From contig NZ_CP029033.1 of assembly GCF_003073475.1 (NCBI RefSeq), positions 62,001 to 126,000 on the forward strand: DNA of 64,000 bases, given 5' to 3'. The stretch's first letter is position 1; each line of letters begins with the position of its first letter. The notes beneath the pieces were generated by a model, which was not told where the DNA came from, ran no database searches, and saw only the letters and a list, made by a program, of their open reading frames with translations. The translations under genes were made by a program, and so were the position numbers. Source of the DNA: Actinobaculum sp. 313 (GTDB taxonomy: Bacteria > Actinomycetota > Actinomycetes > Actinomycetales > Actinomycetaceae). Shown here in pieces: positions 38,424-58,744 of this stretch.

Positions 38424-38675
38424 ATGAGCATCACTGTTTACACCAAGCCGTCGTGCGTGCAGTGCAACGCCACAAAGCGCGCGCTGGCAAAGGCCGGTCT
38501 CGCCTACGATGAGGTCGATCTAACCCAGGATGCGGCGGCACTGGACACCGTAAAGGCCTTGGGCTACCAGCAGGCGCCCGTCGTATTCGCGGATGGAGAC
38601 CATTGGGCCGGTTTCCGGCCCGACAAGATCAAGGCCCTCGCCATGGCCACGCAAAGCGCGTCGGTAAGCGCCTGA
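38424..38675 (+). CDS. nrdH: NrdH glutaredoxin-like reductant
   Basis: 83 residues from ATG 38424 behind AAGGGAGAAGCTTC. The redox motif CVQC lies at residues 11-14 in VYTKPSCVQCNATKRAL; WAGFRPDKI near the C-terminus is the NrdH signature. It passes electrons from thioredoxin reductase to the class Ib reductase. First gene after the NrdR boxes. Confidence 0.96.
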   Translation: MSITVYTKPSCVQCNATKRALAKAGLAYDEVDLTQDAAALDTVKALGYQQAPVVFADGDHWAGFRPDKIKALAMATQSASVSA

Positions 38676-38933
38676 GGCCCGATTCCAGGTAGGGAGCTCA
38701 ACGCGCGGCAGCTGGAAGGTAGATTGCCGGAACGGTATACGACCGAAAGCACGCCGCGCGTTTGTGTTCCCATTGATGTCGCCTAACCGCACAGCCCGCC
38801 ACAACATCGAAAAGATGCCCGGCGTAGTAAGTGTGCCACAACATCGCAAACACGCCACGGCATCGTAAGTACCCCACGGCGCGGCAACGGTCCAGCGTGG
38901 AGGCGAGCGACAAGAAGAGGAAGGCAGGGAACG
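38676..38933. other. Spacer between nrdH and nrdI with a degenerate short repeat
   Basis: Unusually long spacer inside an nrd operon. Three related motifs, CCACAACATCG at 38799 and 38836 and CCACGGCATCG at 38855, follow each other. No gene was recognised. Confidence 0.4.
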
Positions 38934-39338
38934 GTGGCCGTGATCGTCTATTTTTCGTCAACGACGAACAACACGAAGCGTTTCGTGGAGAAGCTTGGCT
39001 TCCCCGCCTTCCGTATCCCGCTGCGCCCGAAGGATGAGTTCTTGCACATGGATGAGGACTACGTCCTGGTAGTTCCCACCTACGGAGGCGGCAACCTCAA
39101 GGGCGCCGTTCCGAAACAAGTCATCAAGTTCCTGAATGACGAGCGGAATCGCTCGCATATCCGTGGAGTCATCTCCGGCGGAAACACCAACTTCGGCACG
39201 GCTTATTGCATAGCCGGCGATATTATCTCGGCGAAATGCGGCGTGCCCCATATGTATAAATTCGAGCTACTCGGCACCCCGGATGACGTGGCGCGAGTAC
39301 GTGAAGGTCTGGAGAAGTTTTGGCAACAACCGCAATAG
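38934..39338 (+). CDS. nrdI: NrdI flavodoxin-like activator
   Basis: 134 residues from GTG 38934. The FMN-binding motifs of NrdI are visible: [18 protein letters not shown] at the N-terminus, [14 protein letters not shown] in the middle and [19 protein letters not shown]. NrdI supplies superoxide for assembly of the dimanganese tyrosyl radical cofactor in NrdF. It overlaps the nrdE start. Confidence 0.95.
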
Positions 39339-41473
39339 GCACGCTGACCGATACGGGCGAGGAGAGATCCTCTCTCGACTATCACTCGCTGAACGCGCAG
39401 CTGAACCTGTACGACGCCGACGGGAAGATCCAATTCCACGCCGACCGCGAGGCGGCCAGGCAATTCTTCCTCCAGCACGTCAATCAGAACACGGTGTTCT
39501 TCCACGATCTCGAGGAGAAGATGAAGTACCTCGTTGACGAGGGGTACTACGAGAAGGAGGTGCTCGACCAGTACTCCTTCGACTTCATCAAGGAACTGTA
39601 CAAGGCGGCCTACGCCCACAAGTTCCGCTTCCCGACCTTCCTCGGCGCATTCAAGTACTACACTTCCTACACCTTGAAAACCTTCGACGGTCAGCGTTAT
39701 CTGGAACGCTACGAAGATCGAGTGTGCATGGTGGCATTGACCCTAGCGCGCGGCGACGAACAACTGGCACGCGACCTGATGGAGGAGATCATCACCGGGC
39801 GCTTCCAGCCAGCCACCCCGACCTTCCTCAACGCCGGGAAGGCAGCACGCGGAGAACTGGTCTCCTGCTTCCTCTTGCGCATTGAGGACAATATGGAGTC
39901 CATCGCACGCGGTATTAACTCCGCCTTGCAGCTATCCAAGCGCGGCGGCGGCGTCGCCCTGAACCTGTCCAACCTGCGCGAGCAGGGTGCACCGATTAAG
40001 AAGATTGAAAACCAGTCCTCCGGGGTCAACCCGGTGATGAAACTGCTGGAGGACTCCTTCTCCTACGCGAACCAGTTGGGCGCGCGGCAAGGTGCTGGAG
40101 CTGTGTATCTGCACGCACACCACCCCGATATCATGCGCTTCCTCGACACCAAGCGGGAGAACGCGGATGAGAAGATCCGCATTAAGACGCTGTCGCTGGG
40201 TGTCATTATCCCGGACATCACCTTCCAACTCGCGCGCGCCAACGAGGATATGTACCTGTTCTCTCCCTACGATGTGGAGCGTGTGTACGGTGTACCCTTC
40301 ACCGAGATCAGCGTGACGGAGAAGTACCGGGAGATGGTTGACGACAAGCGCATCCGTAAGTCGAAGATCAACGCCCGGCAGTTCTTCCAGACGCTGGCGG
40401 AGATCCAGTTTGAATCCGGCTACCCCTACATCGTGTTCGAGGACACCGTGAATAAGGCCAACCCGATCAAGGGTAAAGTCACGATGTCGAACCTGTGCTC
40501 GGAGATCCTGCAGGTCTCCGAACCGTCCCGCCTCAACGATGACCTCTCCTACGAGTACGTCGGCAAGGATATCTCCTGCAACCTCGGCTCGCTGAACATC
40601 GCGAAGACGATGGATTCCCAGGACTTCGGCAAAACCATTGAGGTGGCGGTGCGCGCTTTGACAGCGGTATCGGATATGACGCATATCCGCTCGGTGCCCT
40701 CCATCGAACGGGGTAACGATATGTCTCACGCCATCGGCTTGGGCCAGATGAACCTGCACGGTTACCTCGGGCGTGAGCATATCCACTACGGCAGTGACGA
40801 GGCCTTGGACTTCACCAATATGTACTTCTACACCGTGGTGTACCACGCGATTCGCGCCTCGATGAACCTGGCGCGTGAGCGCGGTCAGCACTTCGAGGGC
40901 TTCGAGGAGTCCGCCTATGCCTCCGGCGCGTATTTCGACAAGTACATCAACCAGGTATGGGAGCCGACGACGCCGCGCGTGCGCGAGCTGTTCGCGGATA
41001 TCCATATTCCAACGCAGGAGGATTGGAAGGTGCTGAAGGCGGATGTGCAGCGTTACGGCATGTACAACCAGAACCTGCAGGCCGTGCCACCCACCGGATC
41101 CATCTCCTACATCAATAACTCGACATCCTCGATCCACCCGATTGTCTCCAAGGTTGAAATCCGTAAGGAAGGTAAGATCGGTCGCGTCTACTATCCGGCA
41201 CCGTACATGACCAATGACAACCTCGAATACTACGAGGATGCCTACGAGATCGGTCCGGAGAAGATCATCGATACCTACGCGGTGGCCACCCAGCATGTGG
41301 ACCAGGGCCTCTCCTTGACGCTGTTCTACCCGGATACGGTGACCACCCGCGATGTCAACCGTAATTACATATACGCCTGGCGCAAGGGAATCAAGACGCT
41401 GTACTACATGCGTATCCGCCAGCAGGCATTGGAAGGAACAGAGGTGCAGGGCTGCGTCTCCTGCATGCTATGA
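39320..41473 (+). CDS. nrdE: Class Ib ribonucleoside-diphosphate reductase, alpha subunit
   Basis: 717 residues from TTG 39320, overlapping the end of nrdI, with GGAGAAG upstream. The protein has the NrdE N-terminus ([33 protein letters not shown]), the catalytic core ([39 protein letters not shown] with active-site residues) and the C-terminal redox tail GCVSCML. It reduces ribonucleotides to deoxyribonucleotides with NrdF, which is encoded 16 kb away. Confidence 0.97.
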
Positions 41474-41693: not shown

Positions 41694-41723
41694 TTGACGC
41701 TCGGGAAAAACGTTCCGTAGTAT
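41694..41723 (+). promoter_or_regulatory. Sigma-70-type promoter of the leader peptide / SDR / CysK / LanC operon
   Basis: TTGACG (41694-41699) and TAGTAT (41718-41723) are separated by 18 bp, the best promoter match in this part of the window. Transcription would start near 41730 and give a leader of about 370 bases before the SDR gene. A hairpin with CCGCA/TGCGG followed by TTTT lies at about 41744-41776 inside this leader. Confidence 0.65.
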
Positions 41724-41909
41724 CCGAACTAATCCGACGCGCACCGCACGCCGTAGACATGCGGCGCTTTTCGGGCAGCGGGGAAGCCGAGCACCTGTTC
41801 CGGTGGACCGATGATCCGCCAAGGTGCCCGGGAACAAGAGAGTCGGCGTTGCCTTGCGCCACCGCAGGGTCTCACACCGGCAAAACGAACGAAGGAAAGG
41901 AGCTCTGAC

Positions 41910-42008
41910 ATGACGAATAGAATCCCAACGAACGGCGAAGCGATGTGTATGTGTTGTCAGGCGGGTGGAGTGCACCCGTTGAAGTCGTCATGTCGGAGGA
42001 GCCTGTAA
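41910..42008 (+). CDS. 32-residue cysteine-rich leader peptide
   Basis: A short gene with a near-perfect ribosome site (AAGGAAAGGAGCTCTGAC before ATG 41910) encodes 32 residues with Cys at 13, 15, 16 and 28, all TGT codons. The first three lie in the motif MCMCCQAGG. A perfect 6-bp hairpin (CGGGTG/CACCCG, 41962-41978) begins five bases after the cysteine cluster. A second hairpin and an intrinsic terminator follow the stop codon. This is the architecture of a cysteine-dependent transcription attenuator, as reported for poly-cysteine leaders of mycobacterial sulfur genes. An alternative is that the peptide is itself a substrate of the LanC-like enzyme encoded downstream; its basic, Ser-containing end (KSSCRRSL) does not exclude that. 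Confidence 0.7.
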   Translation: MTNRIPTNGEAMCMCCQAGGVHPLKSSCRRSL

Positions 42009-42012
42009 CCAT

Positions 42013-42066
42013 ACCTTCCACGGGAAGAAGGTTGTAGCGGATGCCCGGCAGGGCATCCGCTTTTTT
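42013..42066 (+). terminator. Attenuator: hairpin plus rho-independent terminator in the leader
   Basis: ACCTTC/GAAGGT (42013-42032) is followed by a perfect 10-bp stem GCGGATGCCC/GGGCATCCGC with loop GGCA (42037-42060) and TTTTTT. It stands between the leader peptide stop and the SDR start, so it must be bypassed for the operon to be expressed. A fully convincing alternative antiterminator pairing was not found by eye. Confidence 0.85.
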
Positions 42067-42099: not shown

Positions 42100-42894
42100 A
42101 TGAGCGATGGAAAGGTCGCAATCATCACAGGCGCCGCGCAGGGCATTGGATTTGCCGGAGCGCGACGATTTGCGGAGGGCGGTTACACCGCCATCTTGAC
42201 CGATCAGCACGGCCAGGAGGTGCGGCAGGCGGCCACTCTATTGCGGGAGGCCGGATACGCCGTGGCCGACTACGAGCTGGATGTGACGGACTTCCAGCAA
42301 GGCCAGGAGGTTGTAGCCGACGTCGTCGCGAAATATGGCCGGGTGGACGCACTTTTCAACAATGCGGGTATTACCGGCCACAGACCGACCGTGTTGAACT
42401 TCGACCCCGAGCAGATCAAGCAGGCCACGGAGGTCAATCTGTGGGGATCTCTCTACATGATCCAGCACGTTGCGCGTGTGTTCGTGGCTCAAGGAATCCC
42501 CGGAGCGATTGTCAATGTGTCGTCGTTCGTGGCGAGCTTTGCGGAGTGGTCGCCATTCGGCTACGGGATCTCGAAATCTGCGGTCGACGGTCTCACCCGA
42601 ACTGCCGCCTTCCACCTGGGTATGCACGGGATCCGCGTTAATTCCGTGGCGCCCGGATTCACAAAGACGGAGATGGCTATCAAGTACGACTACTCGGATC
42701 CGAAGATCCGCAAGATACAGGCGGAACGAGCGGTCCTGAATCGTTGGATCGAACCCGAGGAGATCGCCAATGCGGCCTTCTTCCTCGCCAGCGACCAAGC
42801 CAGTGCCATCACGGGCGTGAAACTCCCCGTCGATGCCGGATACACCATCACCAAAGAGAACAACATCGCCAGTATTTACGGCGAAACGGAATAG
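42100..42894 (+). CDS. Short-chain dehydrogenase/reductase
   Basis: 264 residues from ATG 42100 behind CAAAGGAGAAC. Classical SDR motifs: cofactor loop TGAAQGIG, NNAGITG, a Ser in NVSSF followed by the YGISK catalytic Tyr/Lys pair, and VAPGFTKTEMA. Asp in the second strand region (TDQHGQEV) favours NAD(H) over NADP(H). The substrate is unknown. It is the first gene after the attenuator and is followed by the CysK-like gene 30 bp on, so it should act in the same thiol- or cysteine-linked pathway. Confidence 0.9.
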   Translation: MSDGKVAIITGAAQGIGFAGARRFAEGGYTAILTDQHGQEVRQAATLLREAGYAVADYELDVTDFQQGQEVVADVVAKYGRVDALFNNAGITGHRPTVLNFDPEQIKQATEVNLWGSLYMIQHVARVFVAQGIPGAIVNVSSFVASFAEWSPFGYGISKSAVDGLTRTAAFHLGMHGIRVNSVAPGFTKTEMAIKYDYSDPKIRKIQAERAVLNRWIEPEEIANAAFFLASDQASAITGVKLPVDAGYTITKENNIASIYGETE

Positions 42895-42924: not shown

Positions 42925-44004
42925 ATGGCACGGATTTATAGATCCATTGCAGAACTCGTCGGCAACACGCCTCTCGTCGAACTGACAAACTATCAACGCG
43001 CACACGGCCTGCAGGCGCATATCTTAGGCAAACTGGAATTCCTCAATCCGAGTGGAAGCGTGAAGGACCGCCTGGCACTCGCCTTGATCAAGGACGGTTT
43101 CGACCGAGGGGAGCTCACCGAGGGCGGCACGATTATCGATGTGACCAGTGGGAATACCGGCATCAGCTTCGCGGCCATCGGTGCCGCGGAGAGGGTCGCT
43201 TTCATCCCGTATCTGGAACCGGGGACCACGGTGGAGCGGGTGCAGATATATCAGGGCTACGGGTTGGAAATCCATGATTTTAATGAGATCGAGGAGGTTG
43301 CCGGTTTCGAAGAGAAGGGTCTGATCTTGCAGGACCTGGTCGACGGAATCACCCGCATCGCCAAGGAGAACGGCTACTTCTACGCCGGGCAGACCATTAA
43401 CGAGCGGAATCAGGCGACCCACTATGAGACAACCGGCCCGGAGATCTGGCGAGATACCGACGGGCAGGTTGACTACTTCGTCGCCATGGGAGGAACTGCG
43501 GGAACCATAGTCGGTGCGGGCCGCTATCTGCGTGAGCAGAACCCGGAGGTCAAGATCGTCGGCGTACAGGCCGCAACATCCTCTCGCCCCGACAGTCCGG
43601 ATTTCACCGGTCATATCATCGACGGAACGCTGCCATTGGGCGGCGTCGACGAATCGCTGTTGCCACCACTTATTCACTCGAACACACCCAATGGCTTCGC
43701 CTTCGACGAGATTATCGATATCAGCGCGGAAAGAGCGTATGCGACGGCGCAAGCCGTTTCGCAAACCGATGGTCTCTTCCTAGGAACATCCGCAGCGGCG
43801 GCGCTTACGGCGGCCATTGAGATAGCGGCCCGGCCGGAGGCAGTCGGCAAGAACATCGTTGTCATCTACCCGGACAACGGCTACAAGTACCTATCCACCG
43901 ATCTGTTTAAACGCCCGGCGGTTTCAGCCGACTCTGCCGCCGATGGGCACGGCAGGGCGAATGACGAGGGGAAGCCGACGGATGAAGGGGACGATCAGGC
44001 ATGA
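42925..44004 (+). CDS. Cysteine synthase-family PLP enzyme
   Basis: 359 residues from ATG 42925 behind GTAGGAGATACTC. Fold-type II PLP motifs: LVGNTPLVEL, PLP lysine in NPSGSVKDRLAL, TSGNTGISFAAIG, and the phosphate loop GGTAGTIVGAGRYLRE. The family joins a thiol or other nucleophile to a dehydroalanine-type intermediate made from O-acetyl- or O-phosphoserine. The C-terminus (about 325-359) is a charged, low-complexity tail. It overlaps the LanC-like gene (ATGA). Because its companions are not sulfate-assimilation genes, it may be a specialised beta-substituting enzyme rather than the housekeeping CysK; this is inference. Confidence 0.9.
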   Translation: MARIYRSIAELVGNTPLVELTNYQRAHGLQAHILGKLEFLNPSGSVKDRLALALIKDGFDRGELTEGGTIIDVTSGNTGISFAAIGAAERVAFIPYLEPGTTVERVQIYQGYGLEIHDFNEIEEVAGFEEKGLILQDLVDGITRIAKENGYFYAGQTINERNQATHYETTGPEIWRDTDGQVDYFVAMGGTAGTIVGAGRYLREQNPEVKIVGVQAATSSRPDSPDFTGHIIDGTLPLGGVDESLLPPLIHSNTPNGFAFDEIIDISAERAYATAQAVSQTDGLFLGTSAAAALTAAIEIAARPEAVGKNIVVIYPDNGYKYLSTDLFKRPAVSADSAADGHGRANDEGKPTDEGDDQA

Positions 44005-45401
44005 CGCTGGCATTTGCGCAACCTTTGGTGAGCACGACGCTGGACACCGACGACTACCTGACGGCCGCTCTGGAAATTGCCGCCTATCTGCGTCATAACG
44101 AGGTCATAACACCGGAAGGCAAATACTGGAAGGTAAGCCCGGAACCAGGCAATGACTACGTGGGTGACCTGATGCTTACCCAGAAGGGCCTGTACGGCGG
44201 ATCGGCTGGAATCGGCCAGTTCTTCGTTCAGCTTTACGAGGCGACCGGCGATGAACAATGGCTTGCGGAGGCGAAGCAGGCTGCCGCATATATCCTGGCG
44301 ACCTACGAAGGTCCTGCTTTCTTCTCAGGCATACTGACCGGGCCTGTCGACGGTATTTGGCCCGTCGCGGGCTGGGGAACAAGTGTGTATGTGGGCCCGG
44401 CGGGCCAAGGAATCTTCTTGGAGCAGCTCTACGAAAAGACGGGGGATACGCGGTACCGTGATTTCCTTCTCACAACGGCCGACGACGCGATTGCGGCGGC
44501 TACGCGGGACGAGCACGGTCTGCACTGGAGTGATGCCATCGACCTGATGTCCGACGGCGGCTACGCCTTCTTCTTCCTATACGTCTATCGCAAAACAGGG
44601 GAGAACCGTTACCTGCAAGCGGCCGAGGATGTCATCGCCTATACGCGCACACGGCGCGTGGCGGCCGACGTCGGAGGTGCCTACTACAAAACCGTCGATT
44701 TGCGGCTGGTGGGATGGGAGTCCGAAGAGACGGTCTTCCCGAACTACTCGCACGGTGCCGCCGGTATTGCCTATCTCAACGCTCTGGCATATGAGGCCAC
44801 CGGTAAGCAGCACTACCTCGACGCGGCGACGGAGGTGGTGGATTTCCTGGCGGCCATTGCAGCAGGAGATAGTGACGGAGCATTGATTCCGTACCTGTAT
44901 AACCCGCAGCGGGGAAACTTCAAGGAGTTCTACTACCTCTCCACCTGCCACGGGCCGGTCGGCACCACCATATTGTTCCGCAAGCTCTACGACACTACGG
45001 CCGACCAGCAGTATCTCGAGTGGATCGACATACTGACCAAGGGCGTGCTGCAACTCGGTGCGCCTCTGGTCCACTCAAAGGGGTACTGGAACAGCTACTG
45101 CCTGTGCTGCGGCGCGCCGGGTCTGCTCATCCACTTTGTGAAAACGGCTGAGAAACTCGGGCGACCGGAATACCTGGAGCAGGCACGACATACGGCACGT
45201 AAGCTGCTCGGCGACTCGTGGAATGACGCAGACGGAAGGCGCTGGTACGCCGCTTGGACCCGCAAACTTCCTGGGCTTGTCGAGACATACACCGGGCTGT
45301 ACGCCGGTGCGGCGGGCGCCGGTAGTGCGCTGCTGTATCTCTACGCGCGGGATCGGGGAATCGCACTCAGTGAAACGGTGGATTACCTATTCCTACGTTG
45401 A
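44001..45401 (+). CDS. LanC-like protein (lanthionine synthetase C family)
   Basis: 466 residues; ATG 44001 overlaps the CysK-like stop. The sequence is a series of about seven helical hairpins with GxxG-type loops (LYGGSAGIG, VYVGPAGQG, YSHGAAGI, TCHGPVGT, LCCGAPGL, LYAGAAGAG), the toroid of LanC cyclases. The Cys-His of STCHGPVG and the cysteines of YCLCCGAPG occupy the positions of the zinc-binding residues of LanC. LanC enzymes add a cysteine thiol to dehydroamino acids; mammalian LanCL proteins add glutathione. No LanB/LanM dehydratase, protease or transporter is in view. A stand-alone thiol-addition enzyme or a maturase for the cysteine-rich leader peptide are both possible. Confidence 0.85.
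   Translation: MTLAFAQPLVSTTLDTDDYLTAALEIAAYLRHNEVITPEGKYWKVSPEPGNDYVGDLMLTQKGLYGGSAGIGQFFVQLYEATGDEQWLAEAKQAAAYILATYEGPAFFSGILTGPVDGIWPVAGWGTSVYVGPAGQGIFLEQLYEKTGDTRYRDFLLTTADDAIAAATRDEHGLHWSDAIDLMSDGGYAFFFLYVYRKTGENRYLQAAEDVIAYTRTRRVAADVGGAYYKTVDLRLVGWESEETVFPNYSHGAAGIAYLNALAYEATGKQHYLDAATEVVDFLAAIAAGDSDGALIPYLYNPQRGNFKEFYYLSTCHGPVGTTILFRKLYDTTADQQYLEWIDILTKGVLQLGAPLVHSKGYWNSYCLCCGAPGLLIHFVKTAEKLGRPEYLEQARHTARKLLGDSWNDADGRRWYAAWTRKLPGLVETYTGLYAGAAGAGSALLYLYARDRGIALSETVDYLFLR

Positions 45402-57682: not shown

Positions 57683-58744
<1,062 letters not shown>

Follow-up and report, generated by a model that had tools for sequence, protein, structure and literature searches.

Genes and signals at the locus

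The window analyzed here is a stretch of 64,000 nucleotides from the genome of Actinobaculum sp. 313, and the leader, its signals and the operon described below lie on its forward strand. The operon of interest consists of three genes: one for an SDR family oxidoreductase (42100 to 42894, recognized by Pfam and NCBIfam profiles), the ATG of which, at 42100, has its own Shine-Dalgarno (SD) sequence; one for a cysteine-synthase-like PLP enzyme (PALP; 42925 to 44004), whose cysKM match falls under the curated cut-off of that model; and one for a stand-alone LanC-like protein (44001 to 45401), identified by profile matches and by its SHG, CHG and CCG motifs. The last two genes overlap by 4 nt. The motifs, at residues 250 (approximately), 316 and 369, form what we take to be the pattern expected for the zinc ligands of LanC, and the CCG form presumably resembles that of ProcM-type enzymes. 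The cysteine-synthase-like gene may link the operon to cysteine metabolism, the activities of all three products being putative.

The nrdHIE genes (38424 to 41473) sit upstream of the leader region described below, about 16 kb away from the gene for the ribonucleotide reductase small subunit (57713 to 58744), and the SDR-CysK-LanC operon is located between the two. The intervening 16 kb may be an insertion.

Related operons exist elsewhere. Granulicoccus phenolivorans carries the same three genes, with a LanC 65% identical to that of the window, and Lachnospiraceae MAGs carry CysK-like and LanC-like genes, several of these loci having two LanC-like genes plus ABC transporters. The pair is apparently a scattered, uncharacterised cassette; a literature search for a CysK-LanC operon returned nothing relevant. 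Among 213 genomes of the family, only two contain the LanC gene, namely the window genome and that of its congener, a metagenome-assembled Actinomycetaceae bacterium, which was the sole congener found.

A cysteine leader followed by a terminator

Upstream of the SDR gene lies an open reading frame (ORF) of 32 codons, MTNRIPTNGEAMCMCCQAGGVHPLKSSCRRSL, running from the ATG at 41910 to the TAA stop at 42006 to 42008, and preceded, 7 nt 5' of the ATG, by the SD sequence AAGGAG (41897 to 41902). The reading of the sequence that prompted this study had pointed to three TGT codons within four positions at 41946 to 41957. They are indeed present, as codons 13 (41946 to 41948), 15 (41952 to 41954) and 16 (41955 to 41957) of this ORF, where they form a putative control segment Cys-Met-Cys-Cys (TGT ATG TGT TGT). 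A further Cys is encoded by codon 28. Past the last Cys of the run, 16 codons remain, so that the run is not near the stop. Over both strands of the 64-kb window, this leader is the sole short, SD-preceded ORF with at least three Cys in four residues. In 30 dinucleotide-shuffled windows, such ORFs occurred 0.63 times on average, never with a terminator behind them; the combination of a Cys-cluster ORF and a terminator is unlikely to arise by chance.

Two hairpins noted in the same earlier reading were recovered. The first, of 6 bp (CGGGTG-GAGTG-CACCCG, 41962 to 41978), lies directly 3' of the Cys codons; it was seen in the sequence and in the predicted folds, and the congener keeps it with a G-U pair. 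The second is the intrinsic terminator between the leader stop and the SDR gene (42036 to 42066), found by sequence scan and by folding. Its stem, AGCGGATGCCC-GGCA-GGGCATCCGCT, spans 42036 to 42061 and is followed by T's up to 42066. It counts 11 bp, or the 10 bp first described if the closing A-T pair is left out, and it is strong in both species (-23.0 kcal/mol in the window, -18.7 kcal/mol in the congener). The folds of both species contain a third hairpin, with a CCTTC/GAAGG core, at 42011 to 42034.

Other candidates in the region were discarded. No riboswitch, T-box or known leader matched the window at the Rfam gathering score, the leader region giving sub-threshold matches only, and an identity as an Rfam riboswitch or T-box was therefore not retained. 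A GTG ORF overlapping the leader in another frame (41945 to 42037) has no convincing SD. A second copy of TGTATGTGTTGT in the same genome, at C1:199116, is not within a convincing leader ORF. Finally, the leader segment CMCCQAGGV (41946 to 41972) resembles a CLCCGAPG-type motif of LanC-like proteins (CLCCG, around residue 367, in the protein encoded by the operon itself). This likeness came from weak tblastn matches to the LanC genes of other loci (E of about 0.006 to 0.02) and is probably due to chance.

Promoter and 5' untranslated region

A consensus scan placed a candidate sigma-70 promoter, TTGACG-18-TAGTAT, at 41694 to 41723, with both hexamers unchanged in the congener; about one promoter-like match of this kind is expected per region by chance. 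From its position, the transcript would start near 41730, leaving an untranslated region (UTR) of some 164 to 180 nt ahead of the leader. This region (41730 to 41893) may have a structure of its own. It diverges from that of the congener by 12.5%, with indels, and is for this reason probably not coding.

Because promoter positions here are consensus matches only, the terminator might just end a short independent transcript, the ORF being fortuitous or serving another role and the operon having its own promoter further downstream. We regard this as highly improbable: fewer than 40 nt separate the end of the terminator stem from the SDR start, the consensus scan detected no promoter-like site in that interval, and both the enrichment in Cys codons and the conservation reported in the next section argue against it.

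Within the UTR, a possible H-type pseudoknot was noticed at 41791 to 41835 (GCACC/GGTGC and GTTCC/GGAAC, with a hairpin GGTGGA/TCCGCC). In the congener, GTTCC/GGAAC is replaced by ATTCC/GGAAT, a compensated change, one G-U pair becomes A-U, and the first helix loses one pair. One could imagine a tandem sensor, in which a structured UTR element responding to a metabolite and a Cys leader responding to charged tRNA-Cys would together gate a CysK-LanC thiol/thioether pathway, but we consider this extension improbable.

Conservation of the leader

The block from the SD to codon 20 (41894 to 41969) is identical in the congener, with no difference over 76 nt, whereas divergence reaches 12.5% in the UTR and 21.7% at the fourfold sites of the SDR gene. 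The absence of any synonymous change over 20 codons points to a constraint at the RNA level. Differences appear right after the identical block (V21L, H22Y and K25M), and the leader stop is kept, as TGA instead of TAA.

The earlier reading had called for a comparison of leader codons in homologous operons. Cys codons and terminator are kept in the congener; the related operons of Granulicoccus and Lachnospiraceae lack a Cys leader, which makes the leader a genus-level addition as far as can be seen. A DNA search of 199 related genomes recovered a further copy of the leader in the congener only. The other short DNA matches had chance-level E-values, and the four that were inspected did not look like the leader.

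Since the operon contains a LanC-like gene and begins with a small peptide that includes Cys and Ser, the peptide could also be the product itself, a precursor of RiPP type on which the LanC-like enzyme would act. Lanthipeptide operons often have a leaky terminator behind the precursor gene, and such a terminator would set the ratio of precursor to enzyme. Several observations nevertheless make this explanation very unlikely. No LanB or LanM domain was found in the genome, which has a single LanC domain, although the control genomes of the LanB/LanM search gave no signal either, so that the absence of these enzymes is unproven. No similar peptide occurs beside the CysK-LanC operons of Granulicoccus or Lachnospiraceae. 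The CMCC motif is also found in the leader of a separate housekeeping cysK gene (see below), and the lack of synonymous changes points to selection on the RNA.

Alternative RNA pairings

Folding the RNA with and without a ribosome over codons 13 to 16, as the sequence-only reading had proposed, predicted alternative structures: a helix between the two ends of the leader ORF (1:2), an antiterminator (2:3) and the terminator (3:4). The strongest pairing predicted in the leader is the 1:2 helix, in which segment 1, the SD/start region (41898 to 41916), pairs with segment 2, the end of the ORF (41985 to 42007). It comprises 14 uninterrupted bp, one of them G-U (41903 to 41916 with 41985 to 41998), plus 3 bp, AGG/CCU, within the SD. 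Its duplex is stronger than 99.7% of shuffles (P = 0.003), and both arms are unchanged in the congener. Once the end of the ORF has been transcribed, this helix would close the ribosome binding site of the leader, and it would thus be mainly an early ribosome that translates it. A segment 1', covering Cys codon 13 and Met14 (41941 to 41951), can also pair with 41986 to 41995 when folding starts at 41917, but it was a minor species only in the ensembles.

Segment 2 has a second potential partner in segment 3 (42036 to 42050, the 5' arm and loop of the terminator, unchanged in the congener). The earlier reading had found no antiterminator obvious by eye. Folding did identify a candidate, 41991 to 42006 with 42037 to 42050, enclosing the 42011 to 42034 hairpin; it shares segment 2 with the 1:2 helix, uses the 5' arm and loop of the terminator, and is the same in both species. 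It was obtained with the terminator 3' arm excluded and with only the RNA past a ribosome on the Cys codons allowed to fold. When this ribosome was placed at Cys13 and the RNA ended at 42050, the probability of the antiterminator was 0.94 in the window and 0.93 in the congener. With Cys16 in the A site it was 0.50 and 0.65, respectively, and extension of the RNA to 42056 lowered the window value to 0.07.

Statistically, the candidate is weak. The gain in antiterminator pairing was within the range of shuffles (P = 0.08 for the window and 0.20 for the congener), and no covariation was shown between the two species. For the full-length RNA with the ribosome stalled at Cys13, the terminator beats the antiterminator, and when the upstream and UTR RNA was free to re-pair across the stalled ribosome the antiterminator was out-competed, by pairings that differ between the species. 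As its fold is about 12 kcal/mol weaker than that of the terminator, the antiterminator would need to form kinetically, during transcription. A further pairing, 41976 to 41984 with 42014 to 42023, seen when folding started at 41970, is disrupted in the congener and was not retained.

Proposed mechanism

An SD-preceded leader ORF, clustered Cys codons, an intrinsic terminator and a predicted 1:2 pairing are thus all present, and we think it likely, from sequence and folding models, that the region acts as a transcription attenuator of the ribosome-mediated kind, responding to charged tRNA-Cys. The 2:3 antiterminator is a more tentative part of this model, plausible but somewhat doubtful. Translation of the leader, stalling of the ribosome, formation of the antiterminator in vivo and the response to cysteine are steps that we infer, and they might proceed as follows. 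If the leader is not translated, the 1:2 helix, which joins the SD/start region to the end of the ORF, and the 3:4 terminator would both form. If cysteine is ample, the leading ribosome would reach the stop codon and cover segment 2, and therefore the terminator would form as well. If cysteine is scarce, the ribosome would stall at codons 13 to 16. A stall at codon 13 would leave just enough space for a second ribosome on the start codon, masking segment 1; segment 2 would then be free for segment 3 (41991 to 42006 with 42037 to 42050), the terminator would be prevented, and the SDR-CysK-LanC operon would be transcribed.

Cysteine leaders upstream of cysK genes

The housekeeping cysK gene, located elsewhere in the same genome (C1, around 1918200), is also preceded by an SD-preceded leader, MMHATRRPSFCMCCLCL, with the same CMCC motif. 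Unlike that of the SDR-CysK-LanC operon, this leader has its Cys run near the stop. A large GC-rich hairpin, not followed by a T-run, lies behind its stop. In the congener, the housekeeping cysK leader ends in FCACCLCL. The leader of the SDR-CysK-LanC operon would thus be a second, differently built Cys leader in the genome, with a common CMCC core.

We then considered 57 regions upstream of cysK-type genes, nearly all from Actinomycetaceae, for SD-preceded ORFs of 9 to 40 codons with at least three Cys in eight residues. Such leaders were present in 19 of them, compared to 0.6 expected from dinucleotide shuffles, and cysteine leader peptides are therefore a recurrent feature of cysK in the family. 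The proposal of a cysteine leader-peptide attenuator made in the earlier reading is hence supported by the conservation in the congener, the paralogous CMCC leader, the enrichment in the family and the conserved terminator.

None of the 15 cysK leaders rescanned had a comparable intrinsic terminator, that is, a hairpin with a T-run; the best reached -12.9 kcal/mol, with a poor tail. This bears on another possibility, that the leader is translated and senses cysteine, but that stalling alters termination without any 2:3 pairing, through Rho, ribosome-RNAP coupling or polarity, the hairpin setting a low basal level. Routes of this type have been suggested for terminator-less cys leaders of actinobacteria. 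The statistical weakness of the antiterminator and the Rho-dependent control proposed for mycobacterial cys leaders (PMC1262725) would fit with it as well. However, a strong intrinsic terminator is kept in both species exactly between leader and operon, and the congener matches segments 2 and 3 at every position but the stop-codon base, so that we judge this route unlikely.

Comparison with known leaders

The attenuator proposed here can be compared with several described systems. Cys leaders precede cys operons in Mycobacterium and Propionibacterium acnes and cbs in Bifidobacterium longum (PMC1262725). They are likewise short ORFs with a run of Cys codons 5' of a sulfur-metabolism operon, but they have no obvious terminators and their Cys run is near the stop, whereas the window leader has an intrinsic terminator and a run 16 codons before its stop. 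The mycobacterial parallel drawn in the earlier reading therefore holds for Cys-codon leaders at sulfur genes, and not for the terminator. The leaderless polycysteine sORFs that act as attenuators in mycobacteria (Canestrari et al. 2020) are reportedly similar in being short Cys-run ORFs at actinobacterial sulfur operons; the window ORF differs in having an SD and in not being leaderless.

Tandem Cys codons, stems and a U-run terminator characterize the uORFC-8-2 motif found 5' of cysS in Rhodobacterales, for which ribosome-mediated attenuation was proposed (PMC8632094). Like the window leader, it has adjacent Cys codons, at about positions 14 to 15 of the uORF, with stems and a terminator behind them, although the stems may be arranged differently. 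The window leader belongs to another phylum, its target is SDR-CysK-LanC and not cysS, and it has no Rfam match. With trp-type attenuators it shares control codons within a leader peptide, an intrinsic terminator and predicted pairings (1:2, 2:3 and 3:4) that exclude one another; it differs in that segment 1 lies mainly over the SD and start of the leader, not over the control codons, and in that the antiterminator is weakly supported.

One genome would thus have two Cys leaders of different build, one with an intrinsic terminator and the other lacking it, in a family, the Actinomycetaceae, in which Cys leaders before cysK are common. The leader described here would tie a patchily distributed, orphan SDR-CysK-LanC operon to cysteine supply, and may provide a first testable hint on the role of those stand-alone LanC-like proteins in bacteria that have a cysteine-synthase-like enzyme as their partner.
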